DNA of 64,000 nucleotides from Arenicola marina. Taxonomy: Eukaryota; Annelida; Polychaeta; Arenicolidae. A program made the translations under genes and the position numbers. Positions 8,210 to 36,065 of this stretch are shown here, one piece after another (the stretch's first letter is position 1; the number at the start of each line of letters is the position of its first letter). The stretch lies in assembly GCA_964019135.1 (NCBI GenBank), contig OZ025250.1:46779174-46843173 (forward strand). Direction: 5' to 3'. The notes beneath the pieces were generated by a model, which was given only the letters and a program-made list of their open reading frames with translations, searched no databases and was not told the DNA's origin.

Positions 8210-10513
8210 ATGTTAGAGGTCCTGTCTGTCCGGGGGGTGGCAGGGGTGGGCGGTGGCCTTGCCGGCCTCACACTGCTGTCGTACCTTGTCTGGGTCTATC
8301 AGGATAACACCAGGACATTCATTGGGGTGATCCAGGATTTGGATGGCACCCCCGGGACAGGTGAGGGCACACGACATCTCCATGTTGTGTGGAAATATAT
8401 ATGTTGTATAGAAATCTACATGTTGTGTGGAAATATACATGTTGTATAGAAATATACACTTGTGGAAATATACATGTTGTGTGGAAATATACATGTTGTA
8501 TGGAAATATACATGTTGTATGGAAATATACATGTTGTGTGGAAATATACATGTTGTGTGGAAATATGCATGTTGTGTGGAAATATACATGTTGTGTGGAA
8601 ATATACATGTTGTTTGGAAATATACATGTTGTATGGAAATATACATGTTGTATAGTTAGTTGGTTGGTTATTCAGGACGCTTTAACCACTTTTGGTCATA
8701 TCGCGTCAATGGGAGAAGGAAGGGAGAGTGGAGCCATGTCCCCGGGAGTAACCCCCTACTCTTTACGAAGAAAGATGTGGGATCTTTATCTTGCGACCAC
8801 ACAGACATGGCCACAGCAGGGCCCGAACCACCGACCCACGTGCCGTTAAGCTCTCAGGTGATACATGTTGTATAGAAATATACATGTTGTATAGAAATAT
8901 ACATGTTGTATAGAAATATATATGTATAGAAATATATATGTATAGAGTATATTTCTATTTCTATACATGTATATTTTTATACATGCATAGAAATAGAAAT
9001 ATACATGTTGTATGGATTTATACATGTTGCATAGAAATATACATGTTGTATAGAAATATACATGTTGTGCGAACTATACGTATTGTATAGAAATATGCAT
9101 GTTGTATAGGAAAATACGTGTTGTATATAGAAATATCCATGTTTTATAGAAATATCCATGTTTTATAGAAATATACATATTGTATAGAAATATGCATGTT
9201 GTATAGAATTATTCATTATACATGTTGTATGGAATTATACATTAGACATGTTGTATGGAATTATACATTATATATGTTGTATGGAATTATGCATTATACA
9301 TGTTGTATCTACTTGCATACATGATATATACACGTAAATGATATACATAAATGTCCAGATGATATACATATAGGTTGATTATATATGCGTTTTATGTAAT
9401 TTAGGGAAGCGGGGATTGGCGTTAAACGTACTCTCGGCTTTCAGCTACACTGGTCCCAGTATATAGCCTTTAGTTCAAGATAATTGAATTACTACTTAAT
9501 ACGTGAAAGTCTCATGTTGATGCCTGAGGTTGTTGGTTTGTGTCCCTCCAGAACCGCGCCCTCCACGCCCCCTGGTGGCGACCCCCTGCAGCGCCACCTG
9601 GCGGGCGACACTCCTGGCCAGAGAATGTCGGCGACGCGGTTACTCAGGCCACGGGGCGCCGGTCAACACGCCCCACCTGCTGGTCGATGACCTTCACAAG
9701 GTCATCTACTGCTCCATTCCCAAGGTCGCCTGCAGCACCTTCAAGGCGGTGATGGCGAGCAGCGCCGCCAAGCGGCCGCTGGAGGCAGTACTGAACCGTT
9801 CCAGCGCCGACGGTAAGCTGCCCATGGTCCACGGAGGCCGCTTCCTGGCCCGGCGGGGAGTCCACAGGCTGGCCCGCTACAGCGCCCCCCAGCGGCGACA
9901 CCGCCTCGCCTCCTACTTCAAGTTCCTGGTGGTGAGACACCCGTTCGACCGACTGCTATCAGCCTACCGCGACAAGGTGGAGCACGCCAGACGCGCCAAC
10001 ACCACCTTCCCTTTCTTCCTCCAGAACAGGAACAAGATCCTGAAGCACTTCGGCGGGAGGTCCGAGGATCTCTACAAAGGCGACTTGTTCATGGCTAACT
10101 TCAGCGACTTCCTGTCCCTGGTGGCCGCGGGGTCCACATCCTGGTTCCGGAACCCCCACTGGGGCAGCTTCCGGTCTGCGTGTCGGCCGTGCGCAGTAGC
10201 CTACGACAGTGTGGTCCGTCTGGAGACCCTTAGCGGCGACCTGGAGGGGATCCTGACGCGACTCCCGGACGCCAGCGGACGCCCCTTCCACCTGCCGGCC
10301 ATTAACGTCAGGAGTCACGTGACGCGAGACCGGATGCGAGATCTCCGTGACCACTATCGCGGCGTCAGTCGTGACGTCATCGAGGGCTTGCTGAGGGTCT
10401 ATCGGAAGGACTTCGAGTTGTTTGGTTACCACTGGGATTCAGCGACAGCTGAGGGTGGCTGCTCTATGGAGACCGGGGGTCAGTCCCACAGCCAGGGACA
10501 GAGCTGTTGTTGA
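8210..10513 (+). CDS. carbohydrate sulfotransferase, HNK-1/chondroitin 4-O family (CHST8-14-like)
   Basis: Two exons, 8210-8360 and 9552-10513. They join in phase 1 across a GT..AG intron (donor CAG|GTGAGG, acceptor CCCTCCAG) to give 370 aa, close to the 350-380 aa usual for the family. The enzyme should transfer sulfate from PAPS to a sugar hydroxyl on a glycan in the Golgi. Exon 1 encodes a short cytosolic tail and a hydrophobic signal anchor (about residues 9-30), as in type II membrane proteins. Exon 2 holds the 5'-phosphosulfate loop IPKVACSTFK (about 106-115), the 3'-phosphate motif RHPFDRLLSAYRDK (179-192) and N-glycosylation sites at about 132, 200 and 233. It looks intact. The start has a weak Kozak context but is the only ATG before the anchor. 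The acceptor substrate, and so the exact CHST number, cannot be told. It converges with AGMO. Confidence 0.9.
8380..8656. repeat. 19-bp minisatellite in the sulfotransferase intron
   Basis: About 14 copies of GTGTGGAAATATACATGTT with G/A changes. It begins just after the exon 1 donor. Overlapping reading frames on both strands here arise only from the repeat. Confidence 0.93.
8657..8862 (-). mobile_element. SINE-like insertion within the 19-bp array
   Basis: About 205 bp of unrelated sequence splits the minisatellite, and repeat units resume directly after it. Read on the minus strand it has a GGTTCGGGCCC stretch resembling a tRNA B box near one end. It finishes with GAATAACCAACCAACTAACT, a short-period tail of the kind seen on SINEs. 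No convincing A box is seen at the proper distance and the flanks are repetitive, so a target duplication cannot be proved. Confidence 0.45.
8863..9312. repeat. decayed continuation of the 19-bp minisatellite
   Basis: AGAAATATACATGTTGTAT-type units continue with many substitutions and length changes, drifting to GGAATTATACATTATACATG. They are older and more diverged than the left part of the array. Confidence 0.85.
9313..9551 (+). other. 3' part of the sulfotransferase intron
   Basis: This non-repetitive stretch ends in the pyrimidine-rich acceptor TTTGTGTCCCTCCAG at 9551. The acceptor restores the reading frame of exon 1 (G|AA gives Glu). Nothing else is recognised. Confidence 0.7.
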
Positions 10514-11806: not shown

Positions 11807-14800
11807 TTACTCGTCTTTGACGTGTTGTTTCTGTTTGAAGAAGTCCCGGTTGCTGTACCATAGCAGGGTGCCGCCCAGGTAGACACAGCGGAACATGGCT
11901 CGCTGGTAGGGGAAGGCCGACATGTAGTCAGAGATGTGGTACTCCAGCAGGAAGTAAGATATGCAGCGCACTGTCTCCAAGATGGGCACCCAGGTTCTGT
12001 GTGAGGAGTGAGAGGAGGTCAAAGGGCAAGGAAATGTAGGTCATGCTAATGCAGGCCAAAGTGAGGGGGTGCAGTTTGCATTGGGACGCACAGACGGGCT
12101 GGCTGGGGATGTTATATGCAAGGCTGACAGCTGGGTTTGCAGTAAAACCGCTTTAACCTCAGCTGTGGTGTCGCGTTCTTGTGAACGTTGTCTGTCACAC
12201 AAGACAACATCAGCTGCAAATGCAGGTGATGCAATATCTGGTGATTGTGCAGTTTCTGACCTCATCCCTATTATCGCTCAAGCTTATATAATAGGGATCT
12301 AATCTATCTTGTCTATGCGATAATAGGAATGCGGTCAGAAACTGCAAAATCACCCAATATCTATTTACTGTTCTATTTTGTCGTTTGTGTGTAAAATAAG
12401 TTGATACTTGTGAGTCGCAAGCTATTCGAGATAAACTGCAACCTGAATCATTGGAGTGGCTGGTGGTATCTAACCAATCTAAGTTAGCACGATGCTTACT
12501 TGTTTTCCTGGAGGTAGCCAATGTTGATCATGCCCAACATGAGGAAAATGCAGATACCGGCGCCAACATAAGCCGAATGCATCTGAAAGCGACATCAGGC
12601 CAAACAATAATAATATAATCTTTTTTTCATACCTTTCAGGCTATAGGCCCATGGTATTAGTTCAGTGCAAATGTGTAATAAATATGCGCTGGTACTTGAA
12701 CAAACTCACTTTCACATACTTGAAAGCAGTGTACGTATCAGCAGCGATGGACCAAATTTCAGACGAATTTTGAGAAGATAACATGGCAACATTTTTTCCG
12801 CGCGATCGATAGAAGGCAGTTCTGCTGAAAAAAGGCCCCATTTCTAATGTGGTTATGATGTCGACAGACACAGACAAAATGATGTTCAGCTTGAGTGGCC
12901 TTTATTCCTGCAGCGAGACTGCAGAATCAAGCTGAATGGGGGTGTGCTGCGCGCTGACACCGGGTACCACGTGTGGCTTACCTGAGCGATGGCGCTGAGC
13001 TTGGCGAACCAGGGGAAGAAGACGACAAGCTGGAGGCTGGGCGATAATGGGGGTGTGCTGCGCGCTGACACCGGGTACCACGTGTGGCTTACCTGAGCGA
13101 TGGCACTGAGCTTGGCGAACCAGGGGAAGAAGACGACAAGCTGGAGGCTGGGCGATAATGGGGGTGTGCTGCGCGCTGACGCCGGGTGTTACGTGTGGCT
13201 TACCTGAGCGATGGCGCTGAGCTTGGCGAACCAGGGGAAGAAGACGACAAGCTGGAGGCTGGGCGATAATGGGGGCATGCTGAGCGCTGACACTGGGTGC
13301 CACGTGTGGCTTACCTGAGCGATGGCGCTGAGCTTGGCGAACCAGGGGAAGAAGACGACAAGCTGGAGGCTGGGCGATAATCGGGGCATGCTGAGCGCTG
13401 ACACTGGGTGCCACGTGTGGCTTACCTGAGCGATGGCGCTGAGCTTGGCGAACCAGGGGAAGAAGACGACAAGCTGGAGGCTGGGCGATAATGGGGGTGT
13501 GCTGCGCGCTGACACCGGGTACCACGTGTGGCTTACCTGAGCGATGGCGCTGAGCTTGGCGAACCAGGGGAAGAAGACGACAAGCTGGAGGCCGCAGTAG
13601 TAGTTGACCCACATCGGAGCCTGCTTGTCGTAGAGGTCATCCTCCGGGAACTGACGGAACACGTAGCACACGTCACCCAATGAGATCACCGAGACAAACA
13701 CGTGGGCAGCGACAGAGTGACTAGTACTATTTATTACATAGTACCATTTACGCTTCGTCTTTTACACGTGAGACTGAGGAGTATGAACATTTCTGTCTAG
13801 AGTGTATATTGTGCAAACACACGACACCATCGGTTTTCGGCGAGTATCATAGTAATAGACACATCAGGTCTAAACGTTCTAAACTTTATTTGTTAATCTA
13901 CTGTGTTGATGGTAATAGTCATCATGTGATATTTCAGTGCCCCCCCCCAAAAAAAACAACAACAACATAACAATAACCCAAAAGAGGATAGATCGCAGTA
14001 TCCTTCAAGTATTGCTCTCTCACAAGGTGCTCCATTCTCCTTCGCCCCCTCCCCGCCGCCCCCCCCCCCCAAAGGCACGTGACACCCTCTCCCCCGTGAC
14101 GGATCCCGTAATCCATTTTCGCCACGTCTGGCACCGCCCCCCTTCCCCCCACTGCCATAAGGGCCTGTGGGTGTGACCCCCACCTACCTCGGGTATGTCC
14201 TCGTAGTACCCCAGCCTGGGTTTGCCTGGTGACCACCCAGGTCCCTTCACCACGGCCGACACCTTGTCCCCGAGGCTGTCATAACCCATCACGCTCTTGG
14301 CAATGGTCTTCAGATGGTGGAACTGCAGAAACACAGGGTGATGTCACTCAAAACAGGGTGACGTCACTCAACACAGTGTGACGTCACTCAACACAGTGTG
14401 ACGTCACTCAACAGTGTGACGTCACTCAACACAGTGTGACGTCACTCAACCCATCAGACCTTTGAGTTTGGCGTTTCCTGCCAAAGGAATCTTACAAATT
14501 TACAAATATTTACAATTTTTAATCGGACTAGCATGAAAAATGTGGTGCTGCCCCCTGTCGTCACCCATTGAAGAAAAATCCGAGATACCAATTTGTGATT
14601 TTTACGACTGGTCGGAATATGATAATAGCTGAAAATGCTTGTTCACATATTGTAGTAAAAACTCTTTAAGCAACAAGTAGATAACATACTATTTATACCC
14701 AGTTTATTAGGTTGCTATCAGGAACAGATGTCTCATCGGGAAATAAGTCACGTGATGATATGAGATAAAAGGCGTTATTTGGGCGTGAGTTCACTCACCT

Positions 14801-17800
14801 GGATGTAGACCAAATCCCATGACCTGATCGGGCTGACGAGACCGTACGAGAGCTTGACATCCGGGCGTTCACGCTCCCATGTACCTGCGTATGAAATTAC
14901 CGGATATGACGTCAGTGCATGACCACAGCGGACCCCCAGGGACGTGTCACACATTGTGTTAAAATCTATCAATTCTTCAAACTCGTTTTAGTTGTTGCTA
15001 AACAATTACAGACATTCAAAAGCCCCATATATAGGTTCATTCGTGTCTAGATGATTATCGTTCTCAATGGCAAGGTGTGCAAATACGTTACCTTTACATG
15101 TTTATAACCATCCATTACTTCACCACGATAAACCCGCCGTAGTCTTACCGAAGAGGACGTCCCAGATCATGAGGAACCCGCCGTAGTCTTACCAAAGAGG
15201 ACGTCCCAGATCATGAGGAACCCGCCGTAGTCTTACCGAAGAGGACGTCCCAGATCATGAGGAACCCGCCGTAGTCTTACCGAAGAGGACGTCCCAGATC
15301 ATGAGGAACCCGCCGTAGTCTTACCGAAGAGGACGTCCCAGATCATGAGGAACCCGCCGTAGTCTTACCGAAGAGGACGTCCCAGATCATGAGGAACCCG
15401 CCGTAATCTTACCGAAGAGGACGTCCCAGATCATGAGGAACCCGCCGTAGTCTTACCGAAGAGGACGTCCCAGATCATGAGGAACCCGCCGTAGTCTTAC
15501 AGAAGAGGACGTCCCAGATCATGAGGAACCCGCCGTAGTCTTACCGAAGAGGACGTCCCAGATCATGAGGAACCCGCCGTAGTCTTACCGAAGAGGACGT
15601 CCCAGATCATGAGGAACCCGCCGTAGTTCTTGTCGATGCAGTAACGGTTTCTGCCGTGGTGGACGCGGTGCAGACTGGGAGTGTTGAAGATGTACTCCAG
15701 GGGGCCGAGGCAAGGAATGGTCTGCAAGGAACACAGCCAACCACTTCACCCCTCCAGCACTCGCCACTCAAGTTTAGACAAGCCAGATGTCATCATATGA
15801 ACAGAGGAGCATCGTAACAGTTTGCCAAACAATCTACTCTGTTTCGGAGCCTCTACGATGCGGATGGCTCGCTAGGTGTTAGTGCCACCCCTTATATCAC
15901 GCCTACGTCACCCTGTTTATCTCAACATTTTATGTTTCATAAATCGTTGTAGAACATTGGGACACGTGACCTCTCGATGTATCGTGTCGTCCATTTTTGA
16001 AAGCTGGCAAAAAAAGGGGAAATAATACTTTGGGCTTAATCCCAAACATCTTGCAAACTTTAATTGTAGATAATAGAGTCAAGATACGATGAATGACGCT
16101 GATAGAGTTGCTGGTGATGTTAGGAGCATTGGCGAGATTAACATGTGGAGTAGCGGGCAAGGAGGTCGTGACTCCCAGCGACCACCCACTCACCGCGGTG
16201 TGGATCCAGATCTGGTAGACGTAGCCCAGCTGGTAGTGGGCGTAGAAGATGGAGGGCGGGATGACAAGGGCCCCGGGAAGGTAGAACAGCTGTCGAGAAA
16301 CAATGCGTGATCAAGAATATACACAGAGAGAGCCCTCTCCGGCAGTGGGAGCCACTCTATAGCAAGGCAACAGGCTGTGAGTATCACTATAATAGGGAAT
16401 ATAGCAAAATAATATAATCCGCATGTACAATGGGTGTGACATAATATCATGACGACGGAACCCAGGACATCCTCCACGCAAACACTTAACAGCTATAATA
16501 TATACCATCCGGGTACTAGTTATATTATTGAGTCATTGAAATGGACGTTTCTCTTACCAACGCCATCTGCCGGTTGAAGAATGCGACGCGTATGGCGGTG
16601 AAGAGACTGAATTCCTCCGGCGAGTGGTGGACTTGGTGGAAGGCCCAGATAAAGTTAATTTCTGCAAGGAAGGACGGAAGGATGAATTGGTGTTTTTCGC
16701 CACCTTTGTGCACACAATGGGATAAAGACGAAAGTGCAGCAAACCGCAACTTCAGATGCCGAAACGGTAGAAAGGCTACGGCTCCAGACTATCGCTGGCT
16801 TGATACGATACGGCATAAGGGAGATCATTTAACACGCACGATCATTTCAATCGAAGCGCTCGTTACAGACGACAAGACGCCGTACCCGGGGAAAGGAAGC
16901 GGACCTCACACAGTCACTCATTGTGGTGAAATTATCAAACAAAGGATGTCACCAAAAAGCCGTTATTTAATGTCCAAGGCGGATGGCTGGGCCTGCCTTG
17001 AGACGGACGGGTGGCGTCATACCGTGGGCGGCCCGGTGCCAGCAGTACTGGCCAAAGTCGGCCAGGATGAGGCCGATCCACCAGGTGAGACGGGAGTCCC
17101 AGGGAAGGTTGATGATGCGGTAGTTCTCCCAGAGATACTCGTACAACTTCAGCTCCACGTTACCCACGACACCCCTGTAACACGGAGAGACCACATCACG
17201 TCACACGGAGGCTATACTGTATAACAGCCCAGCGACACAGAGGCTTTGCTGCATAACACAGCCCTGTGACACAGGCTATACTGTATAACACCCCTGTAAC
17301 ACGGAGAGACCACATCACGTCACACGGAGGCTATACTGTATAACAGCCTTGTGACACAGAGGCTTTGCTGCATAACACAGCCCTGTGACACAGGCTATAC
17401 TGTATAACACCCCTGTAACACGGAGAGACCACATCACGTCACACGGAGGCTATACTGTATAACAGCCCAGCGACACAGAGGCTTTGCTGCATAACACAGC
17501 CCTGTGACACAGGCTATACTGTATAACACCCCTGTAACACGGAGAGACCACATCACGTTACACGGAGGCTATAACACCCCTGTAACACGGAGAGAAGACC
17601 ACATCACGTTACACGGAGGCTATAACACCCCTGTAACACGGAGAGAAGACCACATCACGTCACACGGAGGCTATAACAAGCCCTGTAACACGGAGAGAAA
17701 ACCACATCACGGAACACGGAGGCTATACTGTATAACAGCCTTGTGACACAGATGCTTTACTGTATAGCAACACAGCCCTGTGACACAGGCTATACTGTAT

Positions 17801-19809
17801 AACAGCCCTGTGACACAGAGTTTACTGTATAACAACACAGCCCTGTGGCACAGAGGCTTTCTGCATACCTTTGGCGTAGCGCACATGGGGTAATTTTAAT
17901 CCTTGGTACACGGGGGGATACCTTTGACGCTGCATACACTGGGGTACAGTATCGTGCAGGGGGTATCGTAATCTATTGTACAGGGGGGTAGCGTTAATCT
18001 ATAGTACAGGGGGTACCTTTAATCTGTAGCACAGGGGGGTACCTTAATCTGTAGCACAGGGGGGTACCTTTAATCTGTAGTACAGGGGGGTACCTTTAAT
18101 CTGTAGCACAGGGGGTAGCTTTAATCTGTAGTACAGGGGGTACCTTAATCTGCAGCACAGGGGGTATCTTTAATCTATAGTACAGGGGGGTACCTTTAAT
18201 CTGTAGCACAGGGGGTAGCTTTAATCTGTAGCACAGGGGGTAGCTTTAATCTGTAGTACAGGGGGTACCTTAATCTGCAGCACAGGGGGTATCTTTAATC
18301 TGTAGCACAGGGGGTAGCTTTAATCTGTAGTACAGGGGGTACCTTAATCTGCAGCACAGGGGGTATCTTTAATCTATAGTACAGGGGGGTACCTTTAATC
18401 TGTAGCACAGGGGGGTACCTTTAATCTGCAGCACAGGGGGTATCTTTAATCTCTAGCACAGGGGGGTACCTTTAATCTGTAGCACAGGGGGTATCTTTAA
18501 TCTCTAGTACAGGGGGGTACCTTTGATCTGTAGCACAAGGGGTATCTTTAATCTCTAGTACAGGGGGGTACCTTTAATCTGTAGTACAGGGGGGTACCTT
18601 TAATCTGCAGCACAGGGGGTATCTTTAATCTATAGTACAGGGGGGTACCTTTGATCTGTAGCACAAGGGGTATCTTTAATCTCTAGTACAGGGGGGTACC
18701 TTTAATCTGTAGCACAGGGGGGTACCTTTAATCTGCAGCACAGGGGGTACCTTTAATCTGTAGTACAGGGGGTACCTTAATCTGCAGCACAGGGGGTATC
18801 TTTAATCTCTAGTACAGGGGGGTACCTTTAATCTGTAGCACAGGGGGGTACCTTAATCTGTAGCACAGGGGGTACCTTTGATCTGTAGCGCAATGTTGGA
18901 CGGTAGGTACTCACACTGGGATGAAGAGGAGACAGAAGGTGGCGATGGAGGTGACCGTGTCGTTCCAGCGAGGCAACTTGCGGGCCATGATGAGCAGGAC
19001 GGCGAACTCAATGACCATGTACAGCGGCAGGAACATGATGACCTGGGGTCACAAACAACAACCGTCAGCATGGCAACGGTAAACAACAACCGTCAGCATG
19101 GCAACGGTAAACAACAACCGTCAGCATGGCAACGGTAAACAACAACCGTCAGCATGGCAGCGGTAAACATTTACATTTGGCCATGACAACGGTAACCCAC
19201 ACAGCTAAAACAACGCCATAACAACGGCAAGAGGTCAACCTGACCTTAGTACATGTCACAGGGAAACAACTCGCCAAGTTAATAGCGGCAATCAATACAA
19301 TTTTATACTTTAGGTCGTCCATTTCAATTCAAGGCGGCCAACAGCAATATTGTTTGACCAACCGCGTGACTTAAAAATGATAACAGAATACGTCCTTTTC
19401 GGTAACAAAGTTATCTTCACATGGTTAATCATATAATTAACATCCCATTGAGGTAGTCACAGTTTGCTTCGATTAGAGCCACTGAATTTACTTTCCTTCC
19501 ACCGAAAGCAATATTTCAGCCGCCAGAGCCCTTGGTAACGTCTGTTATGCCTATCACACTGAGAGCCATGTGACAGTGTTACCTCCCCCCGGGGTGGCGG
19601 TACTTTTGGAGAGAGGAGTCACTGACCTGCATCATGAAGCTGGGCACCTGGTCAACCTTCTCGAAAGTGGTTTCCGAGGGCGTGAAGAGGTAGAACATGA
19701 GTCGGACAGAGTGCCATATCTGCTGGCCGCGGGTCATGTCGAAGATACCCCCCATGGGGTCAGGGATAGTCGTGTTGTTGGCCGCCATGGCAACGGCGGA
19801 CATCGCCAT
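11807..19809 (-). CDS. AGMO: alkylglycerol monooxygenase (AGMO/TMEM195), 11 exons, complete
   Basis: Exons, high to low: 19627-19809, 18915-19042, 17023-17174, 16558-16661, 16194-16289, 15589-15721, 14799-14884, 14188-14322, 13537-13650, 12500-12582, 11807-11996. Every junction is GT..AG and phases agree throughout, giving 467 aa (human AGMO is 445). AGMO is an ER membrane, tetrahydrobiopterin-dependent diiron enzyme that cleaves the ether bond of alkylglycerols. The fatty-acid-hydroxylase histidine boxes are intact: HRAAH (150-154), HQVHH (163-167) and HRVHH (239-243). Family landmarks WENY (119-122), NLPWDS and GPGWSPGKPRLG (321-332) are present, with several hydrophobic segments. The start ATG (CACCATGG) has a good Kozak context and begins where family similarity begins. 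The frame stays open upstream to 20106, so a longer N-terminus is possible. The exon 9 acceptor is the least certain boundary. Introns are unusually rich in boundary-anchored minisatellites. Confidence 0.93.
12240..12354. other. long imperfect hairpin in AGMO intron 10
   Basis: A 38-nt arm at 12240-12277 pairs with 12317-12354 with three mismatches, leaving a 39-nt loop. The arms start GGTGATT and end ATTATCGC. It could be a small MITE or a microRNA-like precursor. No target duplication was established. Confidence 0.6.
12905..13590 (-). repeat. 111-bp array copying the end of AGMO exon 9 and its splice donor
   Basis: Six copies counting the original. The donor-side motif GGCTTACCTGAG recurs at 111-bp steps (12976, 13087, 13198, 13309, 13420, 13531). 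On the coding strand each copy carries the last 18 codons of exon 9 (LQLVVFFPWFAKLSAIAQ), the GTAAGC donor and about 57 bp of intron. Since 111 is 37 codons, the coding frame stays open through several units until an intron TAA near 13189. Copies lack the upstream part of exon 9 but keep a CTCCAG acceptor-like site before CTTGTC. Confidence 0.95.
13651..14187 (-). other. AGMO intron 8
   Basis: Intron between exons 8 and 9. It has poly-C and AAC-rich low-complexity stretches near 13937-13980 and 14040-14160. Open frames here are compositional and read off the exon strand. Confidence 0.7.
14339..14447. repeat. 20-bp array of CRE palindromes beside AGMO exon 8
   Basis: Six units of about 20 bp, each with TGACGTCACTCA (the first reads TGATGTCA). 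Perfect TGACGTCA palindromes are at 14359, 14379, 14399, 14417 and 14437. TGACGTCA is the classic CREB/ATF site. The array ends at the exon 8 acceptor, within about 20 bp of the exon. Confidence 0.9.
15131..15632 (-). repeat. 44-bp array copying the end of AGMO exon 6 and its splice donor
   Basis: A 44-bp unit recurs from about 15137 to the exon at 44-bp steps. On the coding strand each unit reads from GTAAGACTACGGCGGG to GGACGTCCTCTTCG, that is the last part of exon 6 followed by its own 5' splice site. There are 11 extra copies beyond the exon. The exon and intron ends share CGCCGTAGT, a likely microhomology that started the duplication. The unit is not a multiple of three, so use of a downstream donor would shift the frame and reach a stop. 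Confidence 0.95.
17169..17870 (-). repeat. 119-bp and shorter repeats copying the AGMO exon 3 acceptor
   Basis: ACACCCCTGTAACACGG recurs at 17169, 17288, 17407 and 17526 (119-bp steps), then in shorter units. On the coding strand each copy carries TCTCCGTGTTACAG|GGGTG, the acceptor used by exon 3, so several equivalent acceptors lie upstream of the exon. Inner pieces (CTGTATAACA, CAGCCCTGTGACACAGG) are shared between unit types. Confidence 0.92.
17880..18895. repeat. 26-bp minisatellite in AGMO intron 2
   Basis: About 38 copies of TTTAATCTGTAGCACAGGGG followed by GGTACC, with TAGTAC/TAGCAC and GGTAGC/GGTATC variants. It runs to within about 20 bp of the exon 2 donor. Read with the gene, units carry TGTGCTACAG, an acceptor-like string. 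Confidence 0.94.
19050..19165. repeat. 28-bp minisatellite beside AGMO exon 2 acceptor
   Basis: Four copies of a unit with ACAACCGTCAGCATGGCAAC then GGTAAACA. The array starts within about 10 bp of the exon 2 acceptor. Confidence 0.9.
19166..19626 (-). other. AGMO intron 1, remainder
   Basis: Non-repetitive intron sequence ending at the exon 1 donor CAG|GTCAGT (19626). Nothing else is recognised. Confidence 0.7.
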
Positions 19810-19827
19810 GGTGATGCTGGGTCTCCT

Positions 19828-20000
19828 GTGGGTGGCTCCTGCGGGGGTAGGGAGGGGTTCTCGTGCTCTGACCGCCCTCTTGTCCCTCTGTTGCTGGGGT
19901 TGCTGTGGGTGGCTCCTGGGGGGGGGTAGGGAGGGGTTCTCGTGCTCTGGCCGCCCTCTTGTCTCTCTGTTGGTGGGGATGCTGTGTCGGTGGCGACTCA
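19828..20000 (-). repeat. 77-bp duplication in the AGMO leader
   Basis: About 2.2 copies; GGTGGCTCCT recurs at 19831 and 19908. It lies directly upstream of the chosen AGMO start and is open in the AGMO frame, where it would read as Arg/Pro-rich sequence. It is treated here as 5' UTR. Confidence 0.85.
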
Positions 20001-21574: not shown

Positions 21575-22424
21575 GTGAGTGCTATACACACTTGGCTCAT
21601 ACAACATCATGTCCTGAGAAACTTTTAAAATGTTGATTGATACCGATATAGATCTGTTACCTATCAGCTCTGAGTGTGATGTCACACATATAAGGTATGT
21701 AATAAATAAGAGGGAAAGTTGTTAAGCAACCTTTTGCAGGCACTTCCATGCGCACTAAAGCATCTATATCCTGACTTAGCATTCACAAAGCCAGACAATG
21801 TGTCCACGAAGTTTTACCCAAATACTCTAAAATTGTAAACTGCTTATATCGCCATGTTAAGACGTTGGTTTTTAAGAATAAACTCTCCACTCGGCAATAT
21901 TCAATGACGGCTGAACGTGGTAGTGGGGCGAGGTACCAAAACTAACTTAAAGCGTATTTAATAACATCGGGCATGAATGTTTTGTAAAATTTATATATAT
22001 ATAAGCTTTATTTATGTCAAGGGGTTTACAACATGGCATCAGATTTCGTTCGCCTTCGGAAGGAGATAGACGGCAAATGAAATCGTTGTTTAAGTTTAGT
22101 TATGGAGCTAGTGTTGTTAATGTTTAAGCATTCCAGGCCGTCTCCAAGATCTGATCCATGATAATCGTCGTTATAAAATTTAAATGCTGGCAAGATTGAT
22201 GGTCAGAAGTCTTCACGGTTTGCACAGTTGCAGCCATCACAAGCACCTACTCGATTTGTGAATGTATGTCATGTCTAAAATAGTGCAATAAACTAGCGCA
22301 CAATATCTGTACGTCACGCCGGGAAATGCGGCTGGGCGTCAAAACAGTCATGAGTGGCGTCTGCACACGGATGTTATATTATGCGTAACAGCGTGTCTCT
22401 CGCGAAGACGGCATCCACCTTGGG

Positions 22425-23575
22425 GATCTGGTCCCCGGTGACCTCAGCGAAGGCAACATCAAATGGGGATCTGGTCCCCGGTGACCTCAGCGAAGGCAGC
22501 ATCCAATGCTGATATGGTCCCCGGTGACCTCAGCGAAGGCAGCATCCAATGGAGATCTGGTCCCCGGTGACCTCAGCGAAGGCATCATCCAATGGGGATC
22601 TGGTCCCCGGTGACCTCAGCGAAGGCAGCATCCAATGGGGATCTCGTCCCCGGTGACCGCAGCGAAGGCAGCATCCAATGGGTATCTTTTCCAAGGCGAC
22701 TTCAGCGAAGGCAGCATTCAGTGGGGATCTGGTCCCCGGCGACCTCAGCGAAGGCAGCATCCAATGGGGATCTGGTCTCCGGTGACCTCAGCGAAGGCAG
22801 CATCCAATGGGGATCTGGTCCCCGGTGACCTCAGCGAAGGCAGCATCCAATGGGGATCTGGTCCCCGGTGACCTCAGCGAAGGCCACATCCAATGGGGAT
22901 CTGGTCCCCGGTGACCTCAGCGAAGGCAGCATCCAATGGGGATCTGGTCCCTGGTGACCTCAGCGAAGGCAGCATCCAATGGGGATCTGGTCCCCAGTGA
23001 CCTAAGCGAAGGCAGCGTCCAATGGGGATCTGGTCCCTGGCGATCTCAGCGAAGGCAGCATTCAGTGGGGATCTGGTCCCCGGCGACCTCAGCGAAGGCA
23101 GCATCCAATGGGGATCTGGTCTCCGGTGACCTCAGCGAAGGCAGCATCCAATGGGGATCTGGTCCCCGGTGACCTCAGCGAAGGCAGCATCCAATGGGGA
23201 TCTGGTCCCCGGTGACCTCAGCGAAGGCCACATCCAATGGGGATCTGGTCCCCGGTGACCTCAGCGAAGGCAGCATCCAATGGGGATCTGGTCCCTGGTG
23301 ACCTCAGCGAAGGCAGCATCCAATGGGGATCTGGTCCCCAGTGACCTAAGCGAAGGCAGCGTCCAATGGGGATCTGGTCCCTGGCGATCTCAGCGAAGGC
23401 AGCATCCAATGGGGATCTGGTCCCTGGTGACCTCAGCGAAGGCAGCATCCAATAGGGATCTGGTCCCCAGTGACCTAAGCGAAGGCAGCATCCAATGGGG
23501 ATCTGGTCCCTGGCGACCTCAGCGAAGGCAGCATCCAATGTGGATCTGGTCACCGGTGACCTCCAAGGCAGCCGA
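22425..23575. repeat. 43-bp minisatellite with 8-unit higher-order repeat
   Basis: About 27 copies of a unit with CTGGTCCCCGGTGACCTCAG and CGAAGGCAGCATCCAATGGGG. Translated shadows are identical or nearly so at 344-bp steps (22530, 22874, 23218), so blocks of eight units were duplicated. A shorter inverted version lies in the right arm at 35610-36060. Confidence 0.95.
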
Positions 23576-25080: not shown

Positions 25081-25530
25081 ACAACTCCCCGGACACCTCC
25101 CCCCGGACAATTCCCCCCCAGACAATTCTTCCCTAGGACAAGTCCCCCCCGCACAACTCCCCCCCTTCCCCGGACAATTCCCCCCCGGACATTTCCCCCC
25201 TAGGACAAGTCCCCCCCGGACAACTCCCCCCGGACAATTCCCCCCCGGACAATTCCCCCCTAGGACAAGTCCCCCCCGGACAACTTCCCGCCCAGACAAT
25301 TCCCCCCGGACAATTCCCCCCTAGGACAACTTCCCCCCGGACAACTCCCCCCTACGAGACAACTTCCCCCCGGACAATTCCCCCCGGACAATTCCCCCCC
25401 AGTCAGTTCCGCCCCCGGACAACTCCCCCGCCCCCTCCCCCCAACTATAATCCCCCACCTGGAAAATGTTATCCTTGGGCCAGTCCCCCCCGGCAAGTTG
25501 CCCCCGGACAATACCCACCTGGACGATAAC
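25081..25530. repeat. outer 14-16-bp tandem repeats, left end
   Basis: Units of the type GGACAATTCCCCCC and GGACAAGTCCCCCCC, with CTAGGACAA variants. They mirror the array at the right end. Confidence 0.9.
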
Positions 25531-29219: not shown

Positions 29220-29750
29220 GGGGGGGGGGGGGTTGTCCTTTCTGTCGGTGTGTGTTTCCAGGGGGTGGTTATCGTCCAGGGGGGTATTGTCCGGGGGCAA
29301 CTTGCCGGGGGGGACTGGCCCAAGGGTAACATTTTCCAGGTGGGGGATTTTAGTTGGGGGGAGGGGGGGGGTTGTCCGGGGGCGGAACTGACTGGGGGGA
29401 AATTGTCCGGGGGGAATTGTCCGGGGGGAAGTTGTCTCGTAGGGGGGAGTTGTCCGGGGGGAAGTTGTCCTAGGGGGAATTGTCCGGGGGGAATTGTCTG
29501 GGGGGGAAGTTGTCCGGGGGGGGACTTGTCCTAGGGGGGAATTGTCCGGGGGGGAATTGTCCGGGGGGAGTTGTCCGGGGGGGACTTGTCCTAGGGGAGA
29601 AATGTCCGGGGGGGAATTGTCCGGGGGGGGGAGTTGTCCCGGAAGGAGGGGGGGGGGCTTGTCCTAGGGGGGAATTGTCCGGGGGGGAATTGTCCGGGGG
29701 GGGGAATTGTCCGGGGGGGACTTGTCCTAGGGAAGAATTGTCCGGGGGGG
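29220..29750. repeat. outer 14-16-bp tandem repeats, right end
   Basis: GGGGGGAATTGTCCGG and GGGGACTTGTCCTAGG units, inverted relative to the left end and somewhat more numerous. Confidence 0.9.
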
Positions 29751-31103
29751 AATTGCCCCTCATCTTGGAGATTCGAGCTTACTCTCCCTAAATCTTCGTC
29801 AATCGCGATCCTGAGACGGGATTCCCCCCCCCCCCCTCCCCGCCTCCCAGTTTCGGCTAGCGATGCGAAGGACCCAATTCTTAGGTCTAAGTTTGTTGCT
29901 GGGCAATATATCCCAAAGGTCAAGGTCATCACCATAAAAAATGTATAGCGTATTGGGCTTGTACGCCGCATTTAAATTTTGCAAATCGCCAGACCGGTTT
30001 TTCTGCCAATATTTTGACATATAGTATGATGACCAGATGAGAACATTTTGGTGGGAATATCACCTCTCATTTTCCGAATGAAGGAAGTCCGACAAATGAC
30101 ACCTTGCGTACAATATCATTAGTATTAGGACGCGGAAGGCGTATATTGACTAAGGTCACGTATCCAAGGTCAAGCTCACAGCAAGGTCAATGTCGCGAAA
30201 CCTTGTTTTGTCGTAACTCCGTTAATATTTGCCATAGAGAGCTGCATTTGTTTTGTTTCAGATTTATAGTTGTTGGTCAGTCATATTTTACTGTGAAAAT
30301 GATTAAAGCTTGACAGCTTAATCTCTATGCCAAAACTTCGATTCGCTCAATAACGGATGGCACCAGGTGACGTTCCCTTCTGTTAAGCAGGGAACACAGG
30401 GTCTGTTTTGTTGCATCCGCCTCCGCGTTCGCGTCCGCCTTTTGCGAACACACGTGTTCGTCTTCTTGTCCGTCGCCCGGCCCACTTTTCTATGTGTGGA
30501 AACTGTTGTTCTAGGTCAGTTCAGGCTAGTAAGCACATGGAGCCGAATCAAACTACAGAACATCAAACTTTTTATCATTATATACAATCACTGAATATAC
30601 TGATCCTGGTTCAATTCTAAAAAAAAACAATTACAATCACAGCAAACTTGAAATATATCTAGCCCGGCGAATAGTTATCCCTCTATCCCTGCGGCAGACC
30701 ATGCTGGAGAAGGTACTCCGAGGCCACCTGGGGACTTGGAGTTCATTTTTACCTAACTAATTATAATTATTTCTGAAATGTTATGCCCCCAACCAACCTA
30801 TATGCCTCTCCATACCCAGTTAATATGCTCTACGTAACTTCGGTCCGGGATTGAATTTGACGGATTGCGAGACGGACGCGAGGCGGACGCAGAAGCGTGT
30901 CTTTGCGCCTTTAATTTATATTGGATACCTTTAATTAAGACGGACGACGGACGTGGAGGCCGAAGCTTGACCTTGCGTGTCTATTGTTTCCCAACCACAG
31001 CTCATGGTGGTGTACCGTTCGACCGCGCACCAAGGCCCAGGGTGCCCACCCTCACTTATGGGCCGTCAAATACTTCGGATACGAAGACACCCATATCGAT
31101 GTT

Positions 31104-35604: not shown

Positions 35605-36065
35605 AAACCGGTCACCGGTGACCAGATCCCCATTGGATGCTGCCTTCGCTGAGGTCACCCGGGACCAAATCCCCATTGGATGCCGCCTTCGCTGAGATCG
35701 CCGGGGACCAGATCCCCATTGGATGCTGCCTTCGCTGAGATCGCCGGGGACCAGATCCCCATTGGATGCTGCCTTCGCTGAGGTCACCGGGGACCAAATC
35801 CCCATTGGATGCTGCCTTCGTTGAGATCGCCGGGGACCAGATCCCCATTGGATGCTGCCTTCGCTGAGGTCACCGGTGACCAAATCCCCATTGGATGCTG
35901 CCTTCGCTGATGTCACCGGGGACCAGATCCCATTGGATGCTGCCTTCGCTGATGTCACCGGGGACCAGATCCCCATTGGATGCTGCCTTCGCTGAGGTCA
36001 CCAGACACCAGATTCCCATTTGATGCTGCCTTCGCTGAGATCGCTGGGGACAAGATCACCAAGGT
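35605..36065. repeat. 43-bp minisatellite, right arm copy
   Basis: About ten units, inverted relative to 22425-23575, containing CATTGGATGCTGCCTTCGCT. Copy number is about a third of that in the left arm. Confidence 0.92.

Follow-up and report, generated by a model that had tools for sequence, protein, structure and literature searches.

Mirages, minisatellites that run across exon–intron boundaries, were reportedly first described by Canestro et al. in 2002. In the available text of PMC3087553 and PMC3902484 they are known from the amphioxus Adh, globin and troponin C genes, with mirage-like repeats in PGBD5; splicing is given there as normal, and copy number as unstable at Adh and at a globin gene. 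The annelid arrays analysed here resemble them in several respects: the unit is composed of an exon edge, a splice site and intron and spans the boundary, both donor and acceptor sides are affected, units are locus-specific and measure some tens of bp up to about 150 bp, and splice signals are kept in many copies. They differ in their annelid host, the published cases lying in cephalochordates, and in abundance. Against a handful of reported amphioxus loci, eight of our 11 genes, counting AGMO, hold at least one junction array, with up to 47.6 copies (MTR intron 6).

A human counterpart lies in the interferon-induced 6-16 gene, which is IFI6/G1P3. Its minisatellite with multiple splice donors, likened here by the title listed in PMC2572611, also contains a donor, but is a single human locus. 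The available part of PMC4974935 describes tandem duplication across an exon–intron boundary of potato RdRp, which, like the annelid arrays, yields extra splice sites; unlike in that case of intron gain, the introns here are of an ordinary kind and, with their arrays collapsed, of typical length; no new intron is shown. The earthworm metallothionein gene (PMC12783039) likewise comes from an annelid and carries arrays of the minisatellite class in an intron; duplications of its fourth exon are missing from the final transcript, but a splice site inside the unit is not described in the accessible portion of that paper. In the titles and abstract openings covered by the literature searches, no splice-site-spanning arrays of annelids were found, PMC12783039 being the nearest. 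As far as the literature was searched, we are dealing with a known structure in a lineage new for mirages.

The affiliation of the host was established from its mitochondrial genome (contig C762, 15,942 bp), in which a single strand carries the protein genes and nearly all the tRNA calls; two opposite-strand ARAGORN calls, one in the non-coding region and one in an rRNA gap, are probably spurious. The order reads cox1-N-cox2-D-atp8-Y-G-cox3-Q-nad6-cob-W-atp6-R-noncoding-H-nad5-F-E-P-T-nad4L-nad4, followed by C-M-rrnS-V-rrnL-L1-A-S2-L2-nad1-I-K-nad3-S1-nad2. Here cox1 was located by family search, the other protein genes by eye from translations and the tRNAs by ARAGORN, while atp8 and the rRNAs were deduced from gaps. 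According to the available part of PMC4866719, leeches and other clitellates have all their mitochondrial genes on one strand, the control region between trnR and trnH, and the rRNAs between trnM and trnL1, separated by trnV; the same text gives this clitellate protein gene order as common to many Pleistoannelida. The order found is therefore of the clitellate/pleistoannelid type, which places the host among the annelids, perhaps among the clitellates, and not among the cephalochordates. A search for the fluorescent-protein family, intended to reveal amphioxus, gave no hit here and none in the control genomes either, and so has no bearing on the host.

The window, that is, the whole stretch of 64,000 nt analysed from one contig (46779174-46843173) of an 867-Mb assembly with 762 contigs, contains an AGMO-like gene (Table 1). 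In the joined exon model the start codon is at 19809 and the final codon ends at 11807 on the minus strand, and the exon-proximal splice sites give in-frame exon joining. The protein matches Pfam FA_hydroxylase with 97.1 bits (cut-off 31). Its match to AGMP_C, which is the C-terminal domain of alkylglycerol monooxygenase, reaches 25.2 bits, slightly below the cut-off of 28.3. Adjoining AGMO is a sulfotransferase family gene (9551-10504), a single long open frame with a Pfam Sulfotransfer_2 score of 135.4 bits (cut-off 22). Two AGMO introns near the 3' end also hold dispersed repeats: one in intron 10 (12240-12356), palindromic and MITE-like, matching several places and both strands at once, and one in intron 9 (12606-12787) with many copies at about 78% identity.

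Table 1 The AGMO-like gene, tandem arrays in and beside it, and junction arrays of the probe genes
Feature	Position	Strand	Remarks
AGMO-like gene (alkylglycerol monooxygenase), 11 exons	11807-19809	-	One open frame across exons, GT-AG introns; Pfam
AGMO exons 1-6	19809-19627, 19042-18915, 17174-17023, 16661-16558, 16289-16194, 15721-15589	-	
AGMO exons 7-11	14884-14799, 14322-14188, 13650-13537, 12582-12500, 11996-11807	-	
44-bp x 11.3 array across exon 6 donor	15131-15627	-	39 bp exon and donor repeated; TRF
111-bp x 5.9 array across exon 9 donor	12935-13592	-	Includes 56 bp of exon; TRF
119-bp x 3.4 array, end includes exon 3 acceptor	17169-17573	-	Only 6 bp of exon included; TRF
Adjoining 51-bp and 67-bp arrays, intron 2 interior	17522-17727, 17715-17858	-	Related units; TRF
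25-bp x 37 array, intron 2	17957-18889	-	25 bp off exon 2 donor; TRF
28-bp x 4.2 array, intron 1	19053-19169	-	10 bp off exon 2 acceptor; TRF
20-bp x 6.2 array, intron 7	14330-14450	-	7 bp off exon 8 acceptor; TRF
79-bp x 2.2 array	19815-19986	-	5 bp upstream of AGMO ATG; TRF
MTR junction arrays			Introns 6, 9, 14 (donor); 17, 29 (acceptor)
ACO1 junction arrays			Introns 16, 19 (donor); 1, 3 (acceptor)
CPSb junction arrays			Introns 4, 7, 8 (donor); 14 (acceptor)
MMUT junction array			Intron 9 (acceptor)
VARS junction arrays			Introns 4, 5, 22 (donor)
PYG junction arrays			Introns 5, 8, 12 (acceptor)
NNT junction arrays			Introns 7, 13 (donor)

A sequence-only reading of this gene had placed the exon 6 donor, the exon 9 donor and the exon 3 acceptor inside repeat units, and TRF together with the gene model put all three there. 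It had also noted arrays starting within about 20 bp of exons 2 and 8, for which we obtained distances of 7, 10 and 25 bp. Its count of at least six array-bearing introns was too high: TRF returned arrays in five (1, 2, 6, 7 and 9), and none in introns 3, 4, 5, 8 and 10 at a score of at least 40. The GT is kept in 10 of 10 aligned intronic copies of the exon 6 array and in five of five of the exon 9 array. The coding frame runs through several copies of the 111-bp exon 9 unit, so that later donors could add 37 residues per copy in frame. As for the claim that chance is unlikely to have produced so many, six of the eight intronic arrays in AGMO either run across a splice site or begin or end no more than 30 bp away from one, against 3.2 expected under uniform seeding within the arrays' own introns (p 0.04, borderline before allowing for the gene having been picked), whereas the number with a splice site inside, 3/8 against 1.9, is not significant. 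AGMO alone is borderline, and the wider enrichment rests on other genes.

Elsewhere in the window, 41656-63049 is occupied by about 484 tandem copies, 21 kb in all, of a 44-bp unit which is pyrimidine-rich and ends in CAG like an acceptor; its plus-strand frames are long and open, and no adjoining exon was identified. The same 43-bp unit recurs in opposite orientations at 22421-23563 and 35610-36061. Both arrays end at a short frame that looks like an exon (...AFAEVTGDQIPKVDAVFARDTL and a close variant), an arrangement such as an inverted copy of a single junction array would show. Two further arrays, at 25087-25429 and 29363-29755, have mutually reverse-complementary units of the CCCCGGACAATTCCC type and are perhaps part of a larger inverted duplication.

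Further genes were sampled with nine E. coli proteins as probes, so that they were not picked by their repeats. All nine have animal orthologues. They led to ten genes, MTR, GLDC, ACO1, MMUT, CPSa, CPSb, VARS, PYG, NNT and ME, which we take to deserve the names of their E. coli orthologues. Gene models were produced by a purpose-written spliced protein-to-genome aligner; cheap introns gave tiny false exons inside arrays and were replaced by a higher intron cost and the merging of exons shorter than 20 bp. With AGMO, the sample comprises 11 genes of the genome and 199 introns, 197 of them usable after omission of NNT intron 9 and ME intron 9 (gaps in the protein alignment). VARS intron 8 and ME intron 8, shorter than 150 bp, were left out of the word-versus-interior and GC-matched tests, in which 195 introns remain. 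The acceptor array of ACO1 intron 19 is probably a wrong exon call; it was left out of the own-intron seeding test, the copy and skew analysis and the position profile, and kept in the coverage ratios and in the total of 26 junction arrays. All array sequences derive from one assembly. Donors carry C at intron position +3 in 38 of 169 introns, although the aligner scoring penalised C there, and among the same 169 the donor words GTCAGT and GTGAGT occur 25 times each.

Arrays are present in 71 of the 197 introns (36%) and make up 31% of the sampled intron bases (TRF, 11 genes); the available part of PMC12130307 gives minisatellites as 2.65% of one earthworm genome, a whole-genome figure as against our intron figure. 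Altogether, 26 junction arrays (one doubtful) were identified in 25 introns, leaving 172 of 197 without one; GLDC, CPSa and ME yielded none by TRF in all usable introns. In the ten probe genes, arrays enclose 23 of 374 splice sites (one doubtful), 13/187 donors and 10/187 acceptors. Introns with arrays, each array being reduced to a single unit, have a median length of 422 bp and array-free ones of 424.5 bp, which makes the arrays additions to ordinary introns. Junction arrays are thus real and general among the genes sampled.

Copying of exon edges was also followed without TRF, by searching the adjoining intron for the 16 exon-edge bases with up to two mismatches. At 17 of 197 donors the downstream intron contains a copy of the final 16 exon bases, and at eight of 197 acceptors the upstream intron contains one of the first 16, altogether 25/394. 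The intron on the wrong side gave 0/183 and 0/183 (0/366), and introns of other genes 0/394. Exon-edge words found in their own adjoining intron and in neither control mean that exon edges are truly copied into the neighbouring intron. The printed unit sequences differ between loci, and this together with the empty other-gene control bears out the earlier statement that units are locally derived and that one spreading repeat does not explain them.

Enrichment at splice sites was assessed in eight probe genes, the null model being a single seed unit dropped with equal probability anywhere on their own collapsed introns. Of the 72 arrays, 19 enclose a splice site, as against 12.6 expected (p 0.03); when arrays lying no more than 30 bp from a splice site are counted too, the number is 34, as against 23.0 expected (p 0.003). 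Arrays scoring at least 500 enclose a splice site in 14 of 34 cases (6.5 expected, p 0.002), the smaller ones in 5/38 (6.1 expected). Array edges are thus enriched at splice sites in genes other than AGMO, within the ten such genes sampled. In all ten, the ratio of junction to interior coverage is 1.68 (1.03–2.55) for all 84 arrays. With the score cut-off of 500, which was set after the data were seen, it rises to 2.79 (1.51–4.82) for the 40 long arrays, covering ten donors and eight acceptors (one doubtful) of 187 each at an interior coverage of 0.017, and falls to 0.69 (0.16–1.42) for the 44 short ones scoring 100–500. The position profile of long arrays, which is unusable on the exon side of acceptors as collapse retains the first unit, peaks near both junctions and is highest at the donor, with 5.5% coverage as against about 2% beyond 120 bp.

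Exon GC is 0.54–0.62 by gene, array-free intron GC 0.40–0.45, and the share of intron words repeated in their own intron climbs from about 3–4% at low GC to 22–29% in windows of at least 60% GC. Without GC matching, exon-edge words are repeated at donors 1.57–2.05 times as often as in intron interiors, three of five intervals excluding 1. After matching, the donor ratio is 0.84–1.08 (five settings, every interval including 1) and the acceptor ratio 0.16–0.44 (five settings, every interval below 1). Removal of the complexity filter leads to the same picture in the GC-matched comparison, with 20–22 donors seen against 19.1–21.1 expected and 9–11 acceptors against 19.7–21.0, of 195 each. The acceptor depletion comes from centred words, which under-count arrays holding little exon, and by TRF counts acceptors are not depleted in the ten probe genes. 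In 17 of 23 cases a long interior array has a higher GC than the remainder of its intron (p 0.002); for short ones the figure is 20 of 43, which is no difference. The GC of long arrays may therefore partly result from growth, and GC matching may over-correct.

Decoy splice sites were compared copy by copy. In 15 donor arrays the intronic donor copies keep GT in 96% as against 91% for other dinucleotides, with 98% of 46 aligned intronic copies in MTR intron 6, 97% of 33 aligned copies in MTR intron 9 and 28 of 28 in VARS intron 4. One mutated copy in MTR intron 6 had raised the suspicion that decoy donors are selectively lost, but this was discarded. Acceptor arrays (n=10) keep AG in 82% as against 85% elsewhere, and it is mostly or wholly lost in MTR intron 29 (0.38 kept of 8) and ACO1 intron 3 (0.00 of 3). 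Units show no in-frame bias, eight of 25 being a multiple of three, which is the chance level. In seven of 15 donor arrays, splicing from the next donor would run into a stop in each frame that the exon leaves open; in the remaining eight it would leave one frame or more open. The exon-proximal donor is presumably the site used.

These results are probably best accounted for by composition-driven minisatellite growth, tolerated at donors since the exon-proximal site still works. Arrays arise or expand more readily in GC-rich DNA, as a matter of correlation, and exon edges, being GC-rich, would often be struck. The unit would then take in a piece of exon end, the splice site and some intron, which is a mirage, and growth to tens of copies may proceed through unequal exchange or slippage. 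A duplication across the donor would disturb neither the reading frame nor the exon-proximal donor and downstream acceptor, and so would be tolerated even with tens of decoy donors in the intron. A duplication across the acceptor would put decoys ahead of the true acceptor and may be removed more often, in line with the depletion given by one of the two measures. Within 27,208 bp of 210 called coding exons there is no array lying wholly inside an exon (TRF period at least 15, score at least 50), as expected from frame loss, and exon edges therefore look like anchors. We regard composition plus tolerance as the most likely explanation, although not a proven one.

The sequence-only reading had proposed that a junction-specific mutational process, such as slippage, R-loop formation or repair tied to splicing or to the exon–intron transition, seeds the arrays. 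The pattern it set out from is general in the sampled genes: coverage by long arrays is highest close to both junctions and 2.8 times (1.5–4.8) as high at splice sites as in interiors, the repeat boundary falls, by eye, exactly at the donor GTAAG in AGMO intron 6, MTR intron 14 and VARS intron 4, and a like structure has been published in amphioxus, a distant animal. The process itself is not needed, however, as the excess is confined to long arrays and is absent from the short ones (0.69), which are nearest to fresh seeds; with the donors equal to GC-matched interior and the acceptors depleted, a dedicated seeding at junctions is not required. R-loops predict a G-rich sense strand, and no clear G-skew was observed: 54 of 92 arrays are G-skewed on that strand (39/66 interior, 15/26 junction), as against 62 of 126 array-free introns. 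The array load is also uneven, with many arrays in PYG (8/16 introns), AGMO, CPSb and MTR (17/30), and few or none in GLDC (3/21), ME (2/11) and CPSa (0/17), and it does not plainly track the GC of array-free intron sequence by gene; such unevenness points to a driver that is regional as much as local. We consider a junction-specific process rather unlikely.

Mere chance combined with selection by the reader, that is, a minisatellite-rich genome with no excess whatever at exon edges, would agree with the borderline result for AGMO alone (p 0.04 unselected) and with the unmatched word-based donor ratio, which without the complexity filter is 1.38–1.61 with three of four intervals extending below 1. 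The eight other genes (34/72 against 23.0; 14/34 against 6.5 for long arrays) already disfavour it, and it appears improbable. Least probable, and hardly to be expected, is that arrays are kept for a benefit to splicing or expression, for example because many donors raise U1 capture or because intron length matters: the better retention of decoy donors (96% against 91%) would fit but is small and may reflect homogenisation, AG has gone from most or all aligned copies in the acceptor arrays of MTR intron 29 and ACO1 intron 3, and the great majority of introns, 172/197, lack a junction array.

Overall, mirages are not a lancelet oddity: most of the genes sampled in a distant phylum carry them. 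It is possible, but in our opinion unlikely, that a mutational process tied to the splice junctions of expressed genes builds them independently in annelids and cephalochordates, continually copying exon ends into introns genome-wide; if this were true, a junction-tied process would steadily supply new splice sites, introns and variants in protein length. Exons with junction arrays may trip up gene predictors and short-read assemblies. The arrays also offer raw material for testing intron gain via tandem duplication, and a natural experiment on 5' splice-site choice, with dozens of near-identical donors among which coding constraint limits the choices.
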